Shown: positions 2,868-9,142 of the stretch, piece by piece | How positions within the stretch are numbered: position 1 is the stretch's first letter | Layout of the letters: the number at the start of each line of letters is the position of its first letter | Origin: a virus | Reading direction: 5' to 3' (one strand) | Virus record (IMG/VR): IMGVR_UViG_3300032050_000141 | Span: 1-61,113 of that record | Length of the DNA: 61,113 nt | Program-made: the position numbers and the translations under genes | Notes under the pieces: model-generated | Database searches by the model: none | The model's input: only the letters and a program-made list of their open reading frames with translations | What the model was told of the DNA's origin: nothing

Positions 2868-2915
2868 CGCCGGTGGCGAGTACGGGAGGCTCGCCACCGG
2901 CGTTTCCTTATTCTT
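2868..2915 (+). terminator. Rho-independent terminator
   Basis: A perfect 13-bp stem (2868-2880 with 2890-2902) with a 9-base loop is followed directly by the T-rich TTTCCTTATTCTT. It closes the unit ending with the 124-residue gene (stop at 2842). Confidence 0.85.
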
Positions 2916-2942: not shown

Positions 2943-3848
2943 ATGGCCAGTGGTCCCAATCCCAAGTCGGCCGTGATGATCGCCACCGTCGGGTGTGTGG
3001 CGTTCTGGACGGCGTTTCGTGTTCTGCGTCAGCGGGTGATCGACGCCTTGGCGAAGGTGGGCGTTACGGCAGTGCCGCCCATCGACTTCTATGACGCGCT
3101 TGTCGAAACCGGCAAGAACGTCATCGACGCCGCCAACCTGCGTCAGCGGAAGTGCCCCATCAAGCCCGACTCGCTGTCGCGGACTGGTGTGGGCGTGGAG
3201 TTCTATCAGACGTTCAAGGGCGACAAGCAGAACCAGCGTGAGTTCTTGTTCTCCCTCGGCGTGGATGACAAGAACACGGTGTTCGTGATTCAGGTCGGCG
3301 TGAACCCTGCGTTGCAGGCATTCTTCGCCAATCCGCAGGTCGATGCCATCCTGAACACGCTGTACCAGAAGCATCTGGAGTACATGCCCAGCCGGGATGT
3401 CACCGATGCTCTGGTTGGTCTGATCGCCAGCCAGAAGGGTATCCCAATGAAGCAGACCGGCGGGGTCTACTTCGTGCCTGACTGTGCTATCTCTGCCGTG
3501 GACTCTGTGTTCCACGACCTGAACGCCGCCGGTTGCCGCTGCACCCTGCTGAAGCAGGACTTGCGGAACAACCCGGAACTGGTGAAGCAGGTCTTGGAGG
3601 CCACCAACGATTCGCTGGTGGAGGAGTGCCAGAAGATGAACGATGTCATGCAGGACATCATCGACAATGACAAGGCTCCCCGTGCCAACGGCATGGCAAC
3701 GAGGATGCAGCAGTTGGGCGAGTTCGCCCGGCTCGCGGAGTATTACGAGGAGCAGTTCGGCACCAACTTGCAGGCCGCACGTTCCGCCCTGTCCAAGTCG
3801 TTTGAACTCATTGCGGAACTGCAAATCCGCAAGTCGGCCGGCAAGTGA
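2943..3848 (+). CDS. 301-residue protein upstream of the MoxR/VWA pair, function unknown
   Basis: AAAGGA lies eight bases before the ATG at 2943; an in-frame ATG at 2919 is less likely because it sits against the terminator T-run. The protein is mainly helical, with a mildly hydrophobic segment at 12-25 (MIATVGCVAFWTAF), mixed alpha/beta in the middle, and coiled-coil-like helices toward the C-terminus (about 215-300). No catalytic motif is recognised. Its place just before an AAA+ ATPase and a VWA protein suggests it is a substrate, scaffold or regulator of that pair, but this is inferred only from position. Confidence 0.85.
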   Translation: MASGPNPKSAVMIATVGCVAFWTAFRVLRQRVIDALAKVGVTAVPPIDFYDALVETGKNVIDAANLRQRKCPIKPDSLSRTGVGVEFYQTFKGDKQNQREFLFSLGVDDKNTVFVIQVGVNPALQAFFANPQVDAILNTLYQKHLEYMPSRDVTDALVGLIASQKGIPMKQTGGVYFVPDCAISAVDSVFHDLNAAGCRCTLLKQDLRNNPELVKQVLEATNDSLVEECQKMNDVMQDIIDNDKAPRANGMATRMQQLGEFARLAEYYEEQFGTNLQAARSALSKSFELIAELQIRKSAGK

Positions 3849-3866
3849 TGTTTCCCTATCGCTATG

Positions 3867-3923
3867 GGCGGCGGCGCCCCGGCGAGTGTCTTCCGGGCCC
3901 GGCACGGTGCCGGCCCGGCACGG
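3867..3923 (+). promoter_or_regulatory. leader hairpin element, copy 6 (for the AAA+ ATPase gene)
   Basis: Shared core GCGCCCCGGCGAG at 3874-3886, preceded by GCTATGG. It is followed by a hairpin centred on 3906 (CGGCAC at 3900-3905 with GTGCCG at 3907-3912, extended by GGCC/GCCC on the outside). The core ends 70 bases before the ATG at 3956. Confidence 0.65.
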
Positions 3924-3955
3924 TTCGGTTCTCTGTCAATGGGGAGTGATTTCAG

Positions 3956-5056
3956 ATGAGCAGTCTGTTGAATCTGCCGTACTACGTTGCGGCACAGGTT
4001 GGTGTACCGTCCATGGCGTGGGGCGGTACTGGTGTGGCGAAGACCGCCTCAATCGAGGCTTGTGCGGTGGCTGCGGGTAAGGTGTTCCACGCCTTCCTGC
4101 CCACCCACCACCTGCCCGAGGAGATGACCGGCATGCCGGCCGTCTACCGGGAGGAGAACATGGTGCGGATGGTTCCGCTGGACGAGATGCACGACCTGAC
4201 CCTTCCGGATCGGTGGTGGCATCTGGACGAGGCGAACACGGGTTCTTCGATGATGCGTGCCGTCACGCTGTCCATCGTGAACCCCACCGAGCGGCGTATC
4301 GGCCGGCTCACGTTCGCCCCGGACTTGATCGTGACCGCTGCCGCCAACCCGCCGGAGATCGCACCTAATGCGACCCCGTTTGAGGGTTCGGTGCTGAACC
4401 GGTTCTTCCACTGGAAGTGGGAGACTCCGGTGCAGGACTTCCTGACCGGGATCGAAACGGGTGTTTACCCGAAGCCGTCGATCCCCGTGGTCAAGAACAG
4501 CAGCATCGGTGAGATGGCATGGGGCCGCAAGATTCGGTTGTTCTTGGAGAGCAAGCCGGACTTCGTGGAAACCAAGCAGGTCGAGCCGGACGCCTTGTCG
4601 TTCCCCAGTCTGCGGCAGTGGGCCTACGTGAAGAAGGGCTGTGCTGGACTGGACTCGGTGGGTGCTGACCCCAAGGTCTACGTGAAGTTCGTCAGTGGCT
4701 GCGTCGGCCAGACCGCCGCGACCCTGTTCGTGCAGTTCGCACAGGCCATGGACTTGTACTCGGCCCGTGAGGTGATGGAGGGGAAGGCCACGGTCAACTT
4801 CAACGACAAGTTGGACCGGCTGTTCCAACTGCCGTCGGCACTCATCTTCCACGCCCAAATGGCGAAGGACGAGGGTGCCCTGACCGATGACATGGTGGAC
4901 CGTGCGTTCATCGTGTTGCTGACCCTTGGCGAGAAGGGCATGGTCGATGCGGTGAAGCAGCCGCTGTCCGCCATCGCCCTCATCAAGCCCGGCTACCGTC
5001 CGCCGCAGCAGTACCGTGAGCGGTTCGGTTCGCTGCTGTCGCAGATCATGGCTTGA
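3956..5056 (+). CDS. MoxR/RavA-type AAA+ ATPase (366 residues)
   Basis: GGGGAG precedes the ATG. Walker A is GGTGVAKT at residues 23-30, with the A-K-T form typical of MoxR ATPases. Walker B is HLDEA at 89-93, sensor 1 is TAAANP at 127-132, and LNRF at 147-150 is the likely arginine finger. MoxR proteins couple ATP hydrolysis to remodelling of partners and commonly work with VWA proteins, one of which is the next gene. The N-terminus is very short before Walker A. The C-terminal 200 residues are helical. The phage target is unknown; the family call is firm. Confidence 0.9.
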   Translation: MSSLLNLPYYVAAQVGVPSMAWGGTGVAKTASIEACAVAAGKVFHAFLPTHHLPEEMTGMPAVYREENMVRMVPLDEMHDLTLPDRWWHLDEANTGSSMMRAVTLSIVNPTERRIGRLTFAPDLIVTAAANPPEIAPNATPFEGSVLNRFFHWKWETPVQDFLTGIETGVYPKPSIPVVKNSSIGEMAWGRKIRLFLESKPDFVETKQVEPDALSFPSLRQWAYVKKGCAGLDSVGADPKVYVKFVSGCVGQTAATLFVQFAQAMDLYSAREVMEGKATVNFNDKLDRLFQLPSALIFHAQMAKDEGALTDDMVDRAFIVLLTLGEKGMVDAVKQPLSAIALIKPGYRPPQQYRERFGSLLSQIMA

Positions 5057-5079
5057 TTCTTCGTGTCGATTCACTCCCC

Positions 5080-5121
5080 GCCGTGGGGCGTAGTGGTGGA
5101 AACACCGCTGCGCCCCACGGC
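5080..5121 (+). terminator. long intergenic hairpin between the ATPase and VWA genes
   Basis: GCCGTGGGGCG (5080-5090) pairs with CGCCCCACGGC (5111-5121), and the inner bases pair further (TAG/CTG, GGTG/CACC around a GAAA loop), giving about 18 bp of stem. No T-run follows, so it may attenuate transcription, protect the mRNA end, or simply separate expression of the two genes. Confidence 0.55.
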
Positions 5122-5148
5122 ACTCTCTAACGCAGAAAGGTTTCTCGC

Positions 5149-6504
5149 ATGCCGACGATTGCCAAACTGCCGCCGCATATCATCGCGGTGAGCAAGGCCA
5201 AGGAAATGGCCCAACAGTGGATGAAGTATCTCGGCGGGTATCTGGAGGGATGCCCGACCATCTTCGATTCCCGCGTCCCGACCATGGGCGTGGACTCCGA
5301 CGGCAGGTTGTACATCAACCCGCAGTGGGTGGATCAGTGGTCCGTGGAGCAGAATGCCTACGTTCTGCTGCACGAAATGTGCCACAACCTGCTGAACCAT
5401 GCGGAGCGCCGGTTGCAGGCCATCCCCAACGCCAACCCGCAGCAGTTGGAGTGTTGGAACGTGGCCGCAGACCTGTGCATTCAGCAGGTGCTGGAGGAAT
5501 GGGACCAGTACCGTCCGCGTCCATCCGTGGAGATTCGGGATTACGTTGGCGTCCCCGGCATGGTGCCCGGCCTCTCGACCGAGCGGTACTACGGAATCCT
5601 GTGGAACAACGGGAATCCGCAGCAGCCCAAGGGCAAGCAGCCCGGCGGCCAACCCGGCAATCAGCCCGGTCAGCCCGGTCAGGGTGGGCAGGATGACGAT
5701 GACCAGCAGCCCGGCAATGGCGGCAGTGGTGGCGGCACGCCAGTCCCGCCCAAGTCCAAGCAGCCACACGGTCAGTCCGGCTCCGCGTCCGATGGCGTGA
5801 AGCAGGACTACGAACTGGAGTCCGACCTGACCAGTACGGCCACCAACATGGCCAGACTGGAGGACGTTCGCCAGCAGATGGAGGACGATGGCAGCGTCGG
5901 CAAGGGCTCCGGCATGGGGCAACTGCGGCAGTCACTGAACGTGCGGCTCCGGCGTCAGCCCGATCCGTTCGACCAGTTGAAAGCCATCGTTGGCAAGGAA
6001 GTCTCCGCGACAGTGGGAGCGGACGAGTACACCTACCGTCGGCTGTCCCGCATGCAGCAGCATCCGGACCACCCGATGCGTGGCGTAATCAAGGTCAGCC
6101 CGGAGTGCGTCATTGTGCTGGACACATCTGGCTCAATGGGTGCCGGGCCACGGGGCGAACGTGTGTCCCGTGCGTTGACTGCCATTGCCCAAGGTGTGCG
6201 TCGGTTGCAGAACCCCCGCGTTATCTCATGGGACGATGGGCTGCGTGGCGACAAGCGGTGTGCAAGTATCCGGGATTTCCAGTGGGTTGGCGGTGGCGGC
6301 ACCGGCATGGAGGACGCCATCGAAATGGCCGACAAGAAGTACCGGCCGGATTGCATCGTGCTTGTCACGGACTGCGGTACGGGATGGCCGGAGAAGCCGA
6401 CCCGGGCCCGATTGGTTGTGGCTGCGGTGGCAATGGACACGAAGCCGCCGAAGTGGGCACGGGTTGTTGATCTCACGAAGGAGGTCAACGCTTATGTCGG
6501 TTGA
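5149..6504 (+). CDS. metallopeptidase-like plus VWA domain protein (451 residues)
   Basis: AAAGG precedes the ATG. Residues 75-79 HEMCH with H84 form an HExxH zinc-protease-like motif in an N-terminal domain (1-155). A flexible G/P/Q/D-rich linker follows at about 157-212. The C-terminal VWA domain has the metal site DTSGS at 325-329, a conserved T in GGGTGMEDA (382-390) and D in VTDCG (406-410). This matches the DUF2201-type arrangement of a putative metallopeptidase followed by a VWA-like domain. VWA proteins of this kind partner MoxR ATPases, here the preceding gene. Peptidase activity is not proven. The target may be a host protein or a protein complex. Confidence 0.88.
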   Translation: MPTIAKLPPHIIAVSKAKEMAQQWMKYLGGYLEGCPTIFDSRVPTMGVDSDGRLYINPQWVDQWSVEQNAYVLLHEMCHNLLNHAERRLQAIPNANPQQLECWNVAADLCIQQVLEEWDQYRPRPSVEIRDYVGVPGMVPGLSTERYYGILWNNGNPQQPKGKQPGGQPGNQPGQPGQGGQDDDDQQPGNGGSGGGTPVPPKSKQPHGQSGSASDGVKQDYELESDLTSTATNMARLEDVRQQMEDDGSVGKGSGMGQLRQSLNVRLRRQPDPFDQLKAIVGKEVSATVGADEYTYRRLSRMQQHPDHPMRGVIKVSPECVIVLDTSGSMGAGPRGERVSRALTAIAQGVRRLQNPRVISWDDGLRGDKRCASIRDFQWVGGGGTGMEDAIEMADKKYRPDCIVLVTDCGTGWPEKPTRARLVVAAVAMDTKPPKWARVVDLTKEVNAYVG

Positions 6505-6571
6505 TGAAGTCGCGTTCTTGATAGCACTCATTGGCATTGGCTTGTATCTCACAAACGGGAGGCCAAGGTGA
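6494..6571 (+). CDS. 25-residue single-span membrane peptide
   Basis: A very good ribosome site (AAGGAGG, eight bases before the ATG at 6494) lies inside the end of the VWA gene, and the frame ends with TGA at 6569-6571, overlapping the GTG start of the next gene. The product is almost entirely one hydrophobic helix (VAFLIALIGIGLYL) followed by a basic end (NGRPR), so the topology is probably N-out/C-in or peripheral. It could be a membrane anchor or regulator for the ATPase/VWA pair. Only its coding signals support it. Confidence 0.55.
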   Translation: MSVDEVAFLIALIGIGLYLTNGRPR

Positions 6572-6990
6572 CGAAGAAAGCAGAGTACGTGGTTCGCAAT
6601 GCTCTCCGTGACTGGCGTAGCAGAGCGAACCAGATGGTTCGGAACTGCCTGCGAAGGCTACGAAAGGAGGGGATCACGCCAACGCAGCCGGGCGTCAATG
6701 ATTATCTCGCGGCTACCGAAACCGTGGAGATGTATTTGCGAACGGAACTGCACGATCTCGTAGCAGAGTGGGAGCAGAAGCGGTCCAACTACGAACCGCT
6801 GTTCTCGATGCCGCCGGCTCGGCGTAAGACGGCGGCACCAGCGAAACCCCTAACGCTGGTCGAGCGTAGGGCAGTGGCCGCAAAGGCCAAGGTTGTTCAG
6901 TGGCAGCGCAAGCAGAAACTTGCGGCCACGAAGGTACGGCAGTACCGCAAGAAGGTTTCCTACTACACCAAGAAAGGTGTGATCCGATGA
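6568..6990 (+). CDS. 140-residue strongly basic helical protein
   Basis: The start is GTG at 6568, overlapping the previous stop and preceded by GGGAGG. The protein is rich in arginine and lysine throughout, with long helices (about 1-35, 48-75, 95-140), and ends in a lysine/tyrosine-rich tail (KVSYYTKKG). It probably binds nucleic acid. The next gene starts inside its stop codon (ATGA). No family recognised. Confidence 0.78.
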   Translation: MTKKAEYVVRNALRDWRSRANQMVRNCLRRLRKEGITPTQPGVNDYLAATETVEMYLRTELHDLVAEWEQKRSNYEPLFSMPPARRKTAAPAKPLTLVERRAVAAKAKVVQWQRKQKLAATKVRQYRKKVSYYTKKGVIR

Positions 6991-8108
6991 GCCTCATGTA
7001 CCGTGTTCAGCCCGCAGTCTCTGTGCTAGTGGGCCGCCCCAAGACGGACCCGCAGATCGTCAGTCCGCAGAACTTTCTCACTAACTTCGGGCTGCATCAG
7101 TCAAAGCCCGAGTCGGAGCAGGCTCTGCGACAGTGCCCGGAACTTGTGCGTCTGGCTATTGCCTCCCACTATACATGGTGGTTCTTGGCACGGGCCCACT
7201 CGGCAGTGGTTCGCACGTTCGCCCATGCTTTCATGGCGGCGTGCAAGTCTCCGTGTGTTGCCATTTGTCAGGCATATAGCCCGGAAATCAACAACGGTCT
7301 GGCGGGAGCCGGCATCGTTTGCAATTCCCGTGGCTACGGCAATGCGGTTTACCCCGTCATGGCGTACCGAGTGCTGCATTTCTTTGGCCGGTACCTGCAA
7401 GATGCCGGGGCCAATGGGCCCAACGCCAACCTCATGCAGAAGAAAGACTGGGCGGCTTGGCTGCGTCCCGGTATGCGTGCCTACTCTGACCACCGTGGAA
7501 CGCAACACGACATGGCAGTGGGCACGGTCGGCAAAGTTGATATGGACGATTACGATACGGCAGACCGGGAGGGTGTTCTGGTTCGCTCGTCCGCCTCACG
7601 GTGGAAAGCGTACAAACACGGTGCTATCACTGCCCTGCAACCGTTCTTCTCTGGCGAACTGGTGCCGGCCGGGTATGACATGACCCCGTTCACCGGGTTC
7701 ACTATGTTCCGGGCGTGCGAGGTTCCCAAGTTGTGGATTCAGAAGCCCCGGTCCAAGCGACTGGTTGCCATGATCCCACGGTGCCTTGCATACGGGATGG
7801 AGCAGGTCGGTGAGGAACTGCCTTACGCCGTGCGGTACGTGCATGAGAGCGATGCGTGGAACCGTGCGGTGAGGAAGCAAATCAACCACTACATCGAGAA
7901 CCGCGAGCATGCCGCAATGATCGCCATGTCCAAGCGGGACTCGATCGTGGCGTGGCTCAACCAGTACGACGCGATTGCCACAGTCCACTATGCCATGCCG
8001 CAGGTGGAGGGGCGGAACGTGTGCATGGATGAGTCCAACATCGAGTTCACTGCGGCGAAGGAAGTCCACTTGCAGTTCCCCGGCCTGTGCGAAAACAACC
8101 TCGGATAA
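6987..8108 (+). CDS. 373-residue protein of unknown function
   Basis: The ATG at 6987 overlaps the preceding TGA (ATGA), which points to coupled translation and fixes the start. The protein is mixed alpha/beta, rich in aromatic residues, with several histidines and cysteines (for example SHYTWWFLARAHS at about 60-72) but no motif I can assign. There is no membrane segment or signal peptide. It is followed after 11 bases by the AcrVA2-like gene and lies in the same run as the MoxR/VWA genes, so it may act against the host, but that is inference. Confidence 0.82.
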   Translation: MSLMYRVQPAVSVLVGRPKTDPQIVSPQNFLTNFGLHQSKPESEQALRQCPELVRLAIASHYTWWFLARAHSAVVRTFAHAFMAACKSPCVAICQAYSPEINNGLAGAGIVCNSRGYGNAVYPVMAYRVLHFFGRYLQDAGANGPNANLMQKKDWAAWLRPGMRAYSDHRGTQHDMAVGTVGKVDMDDYDTADREGVLVRSSASRWKAYKHGAITALQPFFSGELVPAGYDMTPFTGFTMFRACEVPKLWIQKPRSKRLVAMIPRCLAYGMEQVGEELPYAVRYVHESDAWNRAVRKQINHYIENREHAAMIAMSKRDSIVAWLNQYDAIATVHYAMPQVEGRNVCMDESNIEFTAAKEVHLQFPGLCENNLG

Positions 8109-8119
8109 GGAGCAGACCC

Positions 8120-9142
8120 ATGCAGTTCAACGATTACCTCACCCACTACCAACTGGCGAAGGCCGGGGAAATGGGCAATGACTTTGCGAGAGGGTTGCGG
8201 AACATCACGCCACGGGAGTTCTTCGTGGGGTACGTGCATCGGCTGGACGAAATCAGCCGGGCAAAGTTCGGCAAACCCATCGAGCAGGTTGACCCATTTA
8301 CCCCGGCCATGCTGACTATGGAAACGGAGTGGCATGAAGCCGGTCGGCCTTACTACAACCTGTGGCCCAGCATCATTCCGGCGTTGACCAAACTCCACAT
8401 GGACGCGGACTCATCGTTCTTCCGTCTGCCGCTGGATCAACTGCTGATTCGACTCCCCGTCAATGACAACTCGCTGTCGTGGGAGTGGCAGGGAAAACCC
8501 TACAGCGTTAGGGCCGTTCTCTGTGGCAACGTGCAGTTGATTACCGAAGTCAACGGCAAGGCAATGTCAGGGTGGGCTGGCAAGCAAGATCCTGCGTTGA
8601 TGAAGCGTGGCATCGCAATGTGGATCGACGCCCACGAACCACTGCCAGATGCCTATGCTGGGCTCGCCTCAAACAGGCTGCACCGCATGATGTACAAGCA
8701 TGTCGTGTGCGAGGAGGGAAAGTCCATCGAGTGGTCGTTTGACAACATCCCCGCTCACGATTCGGCGGACGTTGGCGTCAACTACCCTGACCAAGTGGTG
8801 CGGGACGTTGCCCGCATCGTGTGTACTCTCTGCCTCATGGCCGAGGACAAAGATTTGGTCGAGCCTATTGTGTTGCGGTCAGACGAGGATAAGTTTGATC
8901 GCACTGGCGACCTTGGGCTGGTGACCAAGGCCATCCGTCGCGGCAACTACGGATTCAACGTGGGCCGCAACATCGAGTGCGTTCCGCATGTTCGTTCTGC
9001 ATCGCCCGCCGCCCTGTACTGGACGGGTCCGGGCCGCAAAGTTCCTCGCATTCGGTTCCGCCGTGGAACCGTGGTTCATCGTAAGCGGTTGGCGTCGGTG
9101 CCGACCGGGTTCCTTGACATGGAGAAGGGAGAGTCGCAATGA
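8120..9142 (+). CDS. AcrVA2-like family protein (340 residues), tentative
   Basis: AAGGAG precedes the ATG at 8120. The C-terminal segment (about residues 285-325: CVPHVR, then YWTGPGRK, RIRFRRG, HRKR) resembles the conserved end of AcrVA2 (about 322 residues), which has PHIR, YWQGTGQ and a basic RVRW segment. The N-terminal half has a LDQLLIRLP stretch where AcrVA2 has LPDWCVYVDI. AcrVA2 of Moraxella lowers Cas12a levels by acting on its nascent message, and distant homologues are widespread in phages, mostly untested. The likeness is from memory of the family, without alignment. The stop overlaps the next start. Confidence 0.5.
   Translation: MQFNDYLTHYQLAKAGEMGNDFARGLRNITPREFFVGYVHRLDEISRAKFGKPIEQVDPFTPAMLTMETEWHEAGRPYYNLWPSIIPALTKLHMDADSSFFRLPLDQLLIRLPVNDNSLSWEWQGKPYSVRAVLCGNVQLITEVNGKAMSGWAGKQDPALMKRGIAMWIDAHEPLPDAYAGLASNRLHRMMYKHVVCEEGKSIEWSFDNIPAHDSADVGVNYPDQVVRDVARIVCTLCLMAEDKDLVEPIVLRSDEDKFDRTGDLGLVTKAIRRGNYGFNVGRNIECVPHVRSASPAALYWTGPGRKVPRIRFRRGTVVHRKRLASVPTGFLDMEKGESQ

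Follow-up and report, generated by a model that had tools for sequence, protein, structure and literature searches.

Several systems are known in which a MoxR-type AAA+ ATPase works with a VWA domain protein. Cellular MoxR-VWA chaperones, among them NorQ/NorD and RavA/ViaA, share the principle of an AAA+ ring with a VWA partner, but their known targets are respiratory or metal enzymes and their partners are not DUF2201 metallopeptidases (PMC9976466). For NorQ/NorD, cryo-electron microscopy showed a finger of the VWA protein in the ring pore and a NorD linker that is remodeled by the ATPase activity (PMC13036017). In phages, the N4-like group has 14 core genes, and gp24 and gp25 of N4 are listed among them with unknown function and a 'vWFA domain' (PMC4193335); the pair is also treated in PMC2784036. 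A MoxR/metallopeptidase-VWA pair was previously noted in group 2.2 jumbo phages (PMC7824862), and ternary conflict systems consist of a MoxR ATPase, a VWA protein and VMAP as the third protein (PMC7159879). Here we describe a locus at positions 2943–6571 of the IMG/VR record IMGVR_UViG_3300032050_000141, the full stretch of which (61,113 bases) is referred to as the window. It encodes an ATPase/VWA pair of the N4 gp24/gp25 type together with g301, a likely third component that resembles the domain family DUF6744.

The locus comprises four genes on the plus strand, encoding g301 (2943–3848, 301 residues), the MoxR-type ATPase (3956–5056, 366 residues), the HExxH/VWA protein (5149–6504, 451 residues) and the putative single-helix membrane peptide pep25 (6494–6571). 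All four had been proposed in a preliminary description made from the sequence of the window, and they are indeed present at these coordinates in an arrangement that is kept in relatives and as such not due to chance. The IMG/VR contigs 3300037189_010341, 3300032318_001284 and 3300031951_000193 carry all four genes in unchanged order. As the first two gave identical match values, they were counted as one lineage. In the two lineages other than that of the window, identities to the window proteins amount to 68–77 % for g301, 78–89 % for the ATPase and 73–74 % for the VWA protein. The togetherness of the four genes, on which the preliminary description had staked its reading, is therefore observed in both.

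The ATPase matches PHROG_1297, the family of N4 gp24, with E=4e-25 for the window and 3.2e-27 for the related locus L003. It features the Walker A motif GGTGVAKT, the Walker B motif HLDE, sensor 1 N131, the arginine finger R149 and sensor 2 R220, and the AAA+ residues K29, D91, E92, N131, R149 and R220 are conserved in all 17 sequences of an alignment that includes 14 phage homologues. A Pfam search returned no family at E≤1 and no bpMoxR match for this protein; a Pfam AAA match is, however, not defining for PHROG_1297, so the family was assigned by its own profile together with the motifs. Because a tblastn search against 50,697 phage records likewise gave zero matches, the assignment was taken from the PHROG profiles.

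The gene product encoded next to it matches the two Pfam families DUF2201_N (E=1.1e-20, 74.8 bits) and DUF2201 (E=1.7e-11, 44.8 bits; PF13203 and PF09967), both above the curated cut-offs of 23.2 and 26.4 bits, as well as PHROG_1314, the family of N4 gp25, with E=4.9e-34. Its layout consists of an N-terminal metallopeptidase-like domain with the pattern HExxHxxxxH...NxAxD, a Pro/Gly/Gln-rich linker at approximately residues 155–215 and a C-terminal VWA domain. HEMCH is located at residues 75–79 as part of HEMCHNLLNH, and the metal ion-dependent adhesion site (MIDAS) is complete in the window with D325-x-S327-x-S329, T385 and D408. The coupling of a MoxR-type ATPase to an HExxH/VWA protein, as initially described, is thus borne out by profile matches and motifs alike.

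We then turn to conservation of the putative metal site, which had been named as decisive for the idea of a metallopeptidase and which is kept across very distant phage homologues. Among 19 diverse phage DUF2201 homologues, the HxxxHxxxxH histidines, the NxAxD motif (NVAAD in the window; N104, A106 and D108) and the MIDAS residues D325, S327, G328, S329 and T385 are invariant, while D408 and the catalytic Glu76 of HExxH are each found in 18. Five further records (Murica and four others, two of them from the subfamily of phage V5) also carry HExxHxxxxH. These observations suggest that the HExxH site binds metal and is probably hydrolytic, and make ATP-driven proteolysis by the window pair possible. 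The exception for the glutamate is ORF 12 of phage V5 (NC_011041), which has HGxxH, with glycine in place of glutamate and the histidines kept. Loss of the glutamate as a trait of the Vequintavirinae lineage was ruled out, as Murica, EspYZU12 and VLCpiM5b keep HExxH; since Murica belongs to the same genus as V5, the V5 sequence may represent a sequence error or a single mutation. Many proteins of this type are labeled 'HNH endonuclease', both in PHROG_1314 and in phage entries of RefSeq (for instance gp25 of NC_008720). In the DUF2201 metallopeptidase-VWA members scanned with Pfam, DUF2201 domains and no HNH domain were detected, which suggests that this RefSeq label is misleading for gp25-type proteins.

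The ATPase/DUF2201 pair itself is known, common in phages and unexplained. Using queries from phage MinM2, 706 phage records were matched by the DUF2201 protein and 591 by the ATPase. In N4, KP8, RiverRider, Philippe, Presley, XC38, MIF8, EE36phi1, MinM2 and RHph_TM3_14A, both lie next to each other or with small genes in between, and in PA5oct the PHROG_1297 ATPase and DUF2201 genes are less than 3 kilobases apart. The N4 pair, part of the Schitoviridae core, shares both families, adjacency and gene order with the window. Unlike in the window, no g301-like protein was found in the N4-type phages searched. Conversely, no N4-type virion RNA polymerase was found among the window open reading frames examined, the largest of which (1724 residues) matches structural families, and the window terminase is nearest to those of HMO-2011-like and Arthrobacter phages, not to the N4 type. 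Group 2.2 jumbo phages share the architecture of a MoxR ATPase and a VWA protein with an N-terminal metallopeptidase domain, but they are much larger and no third protein is reported there (PMC7824862). A bacterial genome search for close DUF2201 relatives found none, and a search of solved structures with the three window families gave no credible match.

What is new here is the third component and its assignment as a relative of DUF6744. The preliminary description had listed g301 as an unknown partner; it is a real, conserved protein, but rather than being unknown it turns out to be a relative of DUF6744, a family tied to MoxR-VWA systems. DUF6744 (PF20529) is the top Pfam match in two of three members, with E=0.05 for the window and 0.003 for the related locus L004. 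A comparison of the g301 profile with a profile of eight DUF6744 proteins by hhalign gave a probability of 96.2 % with a score of 69.4 over 169 columns (columns 108–284), whereas the reversed profile scored 17.9, the best of 60 block-shuffled decoys 45.2 and unrelated alignments 17.7–18.6. The alignment shares a motif, which reads IPMKQTGGVYFVPD in the window and PVRPSGGVYFVP in the DUF6744 consensus; common to both is GGVYFVP, or GG[VAM]YFVP in its general form. On this profile evidence g301 is a distant DUF6744 homologue, and we describe it as such and not as a member because its score lies under the Pfam cut-off.

Two other candidate matches were discarded. Salmonella phage 1252 matched g301 with E=2, which we consider chance, and its neighboring genes are all annotated as hypothetical, none as MoxR or VWA. 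HP0062 matched the DUF6744 profile with E=0.0045, but this weak match involved only short helical proteins and is attributed to helical composition. No mention of DUF6744 or DUF3150 was found in the literature searched.

The genomic surroundings of DUF6744 provide a line of evidence independent of homology. The first examples of DUF6744 came from an Actinomycetota-centered draw, which supplied two plasmids of Rubrobacter and one more genome of that class; further plasmids and a phage of Moorella were added afterwards. Seven loci have readable flanks, namely those on plasmids of Rubrobacter (two), Streptomyces, Nocardia, Alicyclobacillus and Brevibacillus and in the Moorella phage MTATph1, and each of them holds a MoxR-type ATPase gene and a VWA gene no more than a few kilobases from DUF6744. 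Rubrobacter, Streptomyces and Nocardia show the order ATPase-VWA-DUF6744; DUF6744-ATPase-VWA is found in Alicyclobacillus, in MTATph1, where small genes separate DUF6744 from the ATPase, and in Brevibacillus with small insertions. The window, with its DUF6744-like gene followed by the ATPase and VWA genes, shows the Alicyclobacillus/Moorella order. As homology and neighborhood point in the same direction, g301 is likely a third component of the ATPase/VWA machine.

In the Streptomyces phylum the family is rare, with DUF6744 above cut-off in 3 of 396 genomes. It was absent from 398 genomes of a Paraburkholderia-centered phylum draw and from 395 genomes of a Kapabacteria-centered one, and single-protein queries from Rubrobacter, Moorella and Alicyclobacillus detected none in IMG/VR. 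The sets reside on plasmids of 97–264 kilobases and on the 177-kilobase phage MTATph1, and some of them have genes for DUF6094, an SNF2-type helicase and DnaN close by, as though the sets belonged to a replicon core.

While the third component of the plasmid and MTATph1 sets is homologous to g301, their pair is of a different kind, consisting of a RavA/bpMoxR-like ATPase and a VWA protein without HExxH. Judged by its protein families, the window clade is thus a hybrid in which a DUF6744-like protein is joined to an N4-type pair. The window pair does not belong to RavA/ViaA, as its ATPase matches PHROG_1297 without a bpMoxR match and its partner is a DUF2201 protein with HExxH. Nor did we find a bpMoxR or PADLOC match that would place it among the VMAP ternary systems, for which the VMAP models were not examined separately.

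A third protein of another type accompanies the pair in MinM2, Pag-Yong1 and Pra-JY27, phages of Synechococcus and Planktothrix, whose cluster comprises an N4-type pair of MoxR and DUF2201 proteins and, as its third member of roughly 290 residues, a DUF3150 protein. In MinM2, the DUF3150 gene (5954–6826) lies between the MoxR and DUF2201 genes and represents an apparently unrelated second type of third partner. It was rejected as a g301 homologue, as its scores of 14.6 against g301 and 18.9 against DUF6744 are within the decoy range. Because of this lack of profile similarity, MoxR-VWA pairs on mobile elements may recruit differing third components.

Taken together, we favor a reading, to which we give about an even chance, in which the region encodes a three-component AAA+ remodeling machine with an intracellular target outside the virion. 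The N4 gp24-type ATPase would form a hexamer, and the DUF2201 protein would act as its VWA co-chaperone, the VWA domain docking on the ring and the metallopeptidase-like domain being carried on a flexible linker. The DUF6744-like g301 would be the dedicated third component, either as an adaptor bringing the substrate or as the client itself. ATP hydrolysis would pull on the VWA domain and linker and in this way remodel the client, and it may expose the client to the HExxH domain or activate that domain; pep25 could hold the complex to the membrane. The action of the ring on the linker is proposed by analogy to NorQ/NorD, as the DUF2201 protein and NorD correspond in their N-terminal functional domain, long flexible linker and C-terminal VWA domain, and the physical complex, the adaptor role of g301, proteolysis and membrane tethering are inferences as well. 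A more specific version, which we advance tentatively and consider on balance unlikely, would be a hitherto undescribed three-component ATP-dependent protease made of a MoxR ring, a DUF6744-type adaptor and a metallopeptidase-VWA protein, anchored in the membrane by pep25. Such a protease would have arisen by joining the adaptor of plasmid RavA/ViaA-like systems to an N4-type protease pair.

The foremost alternative, although an unlikely one, is a role in virion assembly or maturation, in which the pair would chaperone a structural assembly, with processing of virion proteins by its metallopeptidase domain. Virion assembly with peptidolysis was proposed for such a pair in group 2.2 jumbo phages, with the MoxR-VWA tail system of the archaeal virus ATV as a precedent (PMC7824862); a second structural module lies near the gp24/gp25 homologues in RPP1 (PMC4193335), and the record of the PA5oct ATPase carries a note on electrospray tandem mass spectrometry (ESI-MS/MS). 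The window ATPase and VWA genes sit, however, on an opposite-strand arm that is separate from the genes for portal, terminase and tail, N4 gp24 and gp25 are middle transcripts (PMC4193335), and plasmids, including one with a relaxase, carry DUF6744-type sets. The Nocardia set adjoins a conjugative-transfer gene on a MOBP plasmid, and this conjugative-type location speaks against a general function of DUF6744-type sets in virion assembly. It is because of middle transcription in N4, strand and location in the window and the MOBP plasmid set that we favor a target in replication or host functions over the virion. A non-proteolytic metal or cofactor chaperone, ranked next and held to be unlikely as well, would have an HExxH site that binds metal without cleaving; in the manner of NorQ/NorD, the machine would insert metal into a metal-dependent phage or host enzyme, or activate it. 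Well-studied MoxR-VWA pairs perform metal insertion or activation (PMC13036017, PMC9976466), the genes of the pair lie near nucleotide-metabolism enzymes in N4-like phages, and V5 retains the histidines without the catalytic glutamate. Yet the presence of this glutamate in 18 of 19 homologues and five further records fits a hydrolytic site, and its retention in Murica leaves V5 as a possible sequence error.

The preliminary description had instead suspected a host complex or a defense system as the target, which the machine would disassemble or degrade. Occurrence on phages and plasmids alike would fit such an anti-host role, and MoxR-VWA ternary systems are found in conflict systems (PMC7159879). 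This suspicion is not supported by our analysis and we regard host takeover or counter-defense as distinctly unlikely: counter-defense genes would not usually form a strict core set, as the pair does in N4-like phages of many different hosts (PMC4193335), and the three window proteins matched no PADLOC family at E≤0.01. Very improbable, finally, is that g301 is an unrelated neighbor which resembles DUF6744 by chance, with only the ATPase and VWA protein cooperating. Its score under the Pfam cut-off would agree with this, as would a run of a merged profile on 16 other DUF2201-bearing phages, which detected no copy of the protein in any of them; the profile-profile score far above all decoys, the shared GG[VAM]YFVP motif and the MoxR and VWA genes at every readable DUF6744 locus, twice in the same order, speak against it.

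Several points weigh against the favored three-component machine. g301 scores 13 bits in the window and 17 bits in L004 against a DUF6744 cut-off of 27 bits, the AlphaFold models are poor (confidence score, pLDDT, of 47 for g301 and 38 for the DUF2201 protein), and the three IMG/VR relatives amount to only two further lineages. Since the DUF6744 loci use a RavA/bpMoxR-like ATPase with a VWA partner lacking HExxH, that is, RavA/ViaA-like pairs, the link between a DUF6744-like protein and an N4-type pair is drawn from the window clade alone. What is said here of the complex, of ATPase and peptidase activities and of a target is prediction from sequence.

The small gene at the end of the locus, which encodes the 25-residue peptide MSVDEVAFLIALIGIGLYLTNGRPR, was also followed in the relatives. 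Its ribosome-binding site AAGGAGG (6478–6484, plus strand) lies inside the VWA gene nine bases upstream and is found at the equivalent place in L006 and L004. The reading frame overlaps the VWA gene by just 11 nucleotides, and at its other end the stop and the following start codon share 4 nucleotides (GTGA). In all three lineages the peptide has exactly 25 residues and identical overlaps, with a Kyte-Doolittle maximum of 2.3–3.0. Between the window and L006, 10 codon changes are synonymous and 5 nonsynonymous, with 7, 2 and 12 differences at the three codon positions. Because length and overlaps are constant and substitutions are of the coding type, pep25 is very probably a real gene, translationally coupled both to the VWA gene before it and to g140 after it, so that the peptide and its internal ribosome site noticed in the preliminary description withstand closer inspection.

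The separate leaders noticed alongside are present for three of the genes, those of g301, the ATPase and the VWA protein (approximately 90–107 nucleotides each); the peptide gene lacks a leader and is instead coupled to that of the VWA protein. The g301 leader contains a hairpin with a 14-base-pair stem (2868–2902, plus strand; RNA fold z=-3.4), and the leaders of L003 and L004 form stems of other sequence at the equivalent position (z=-3.6 and -2.6). A perfect 19-base-pair hairpin with a GAAA loop precedes the VWA gene (5080–5121, plus strand; z=-6.7); it is kept in L006 (5901–5991, z=-4.7) and L004 (3048–3154, z=-5.4), and between the window and L006 two pairs are altered on both sides in a compensatory manner. 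These hairpins likely serve processing or termination between cistrons. The 107-nucleotide ATPase leader (3849–3955, plus strand) folds no better than shuffled sequences (z=-0.6) and carries a repeated GC-rich element. This intergenic element around GGCGCCCCGGCGAGTGT, which includes a GC-rich inverted repeat, occurs in both orientations at the left genome end, with copies at 1462, 2383 and 3873 on the plus strand and at 327, 841 and 1283 on the minus strand.

The coupled gene row extends beyond position 6571 with g140 (6568–6990, plus strand), a basic protein with no assigned function, followed by g373 (6987–8108). g140 is kept in L003 and L006 with 59 % identity, and in L004 only its C-terminal half is found. 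g373 and the adjoining g340 (6987–9142 for both genes) are kept in relatives with 37–55 % and 66–69 %, respectively, and matched no Pfam or PHROG family.

That DUF6744 keeps turning up beside MoxR-VWA pairs in Actinomycetota and Bacillota, on their plasmids as well as in their phages, and its distant homologue beside an N4-type pair, turns an orphan domain family into a likely machine component. For gp24/gp25-type machines, g301 offers a concrete partner whose binding or cleavage can be studied, and the three-component protease, if true, would provide the first mechanistic handle on N4 gp24/gp25.

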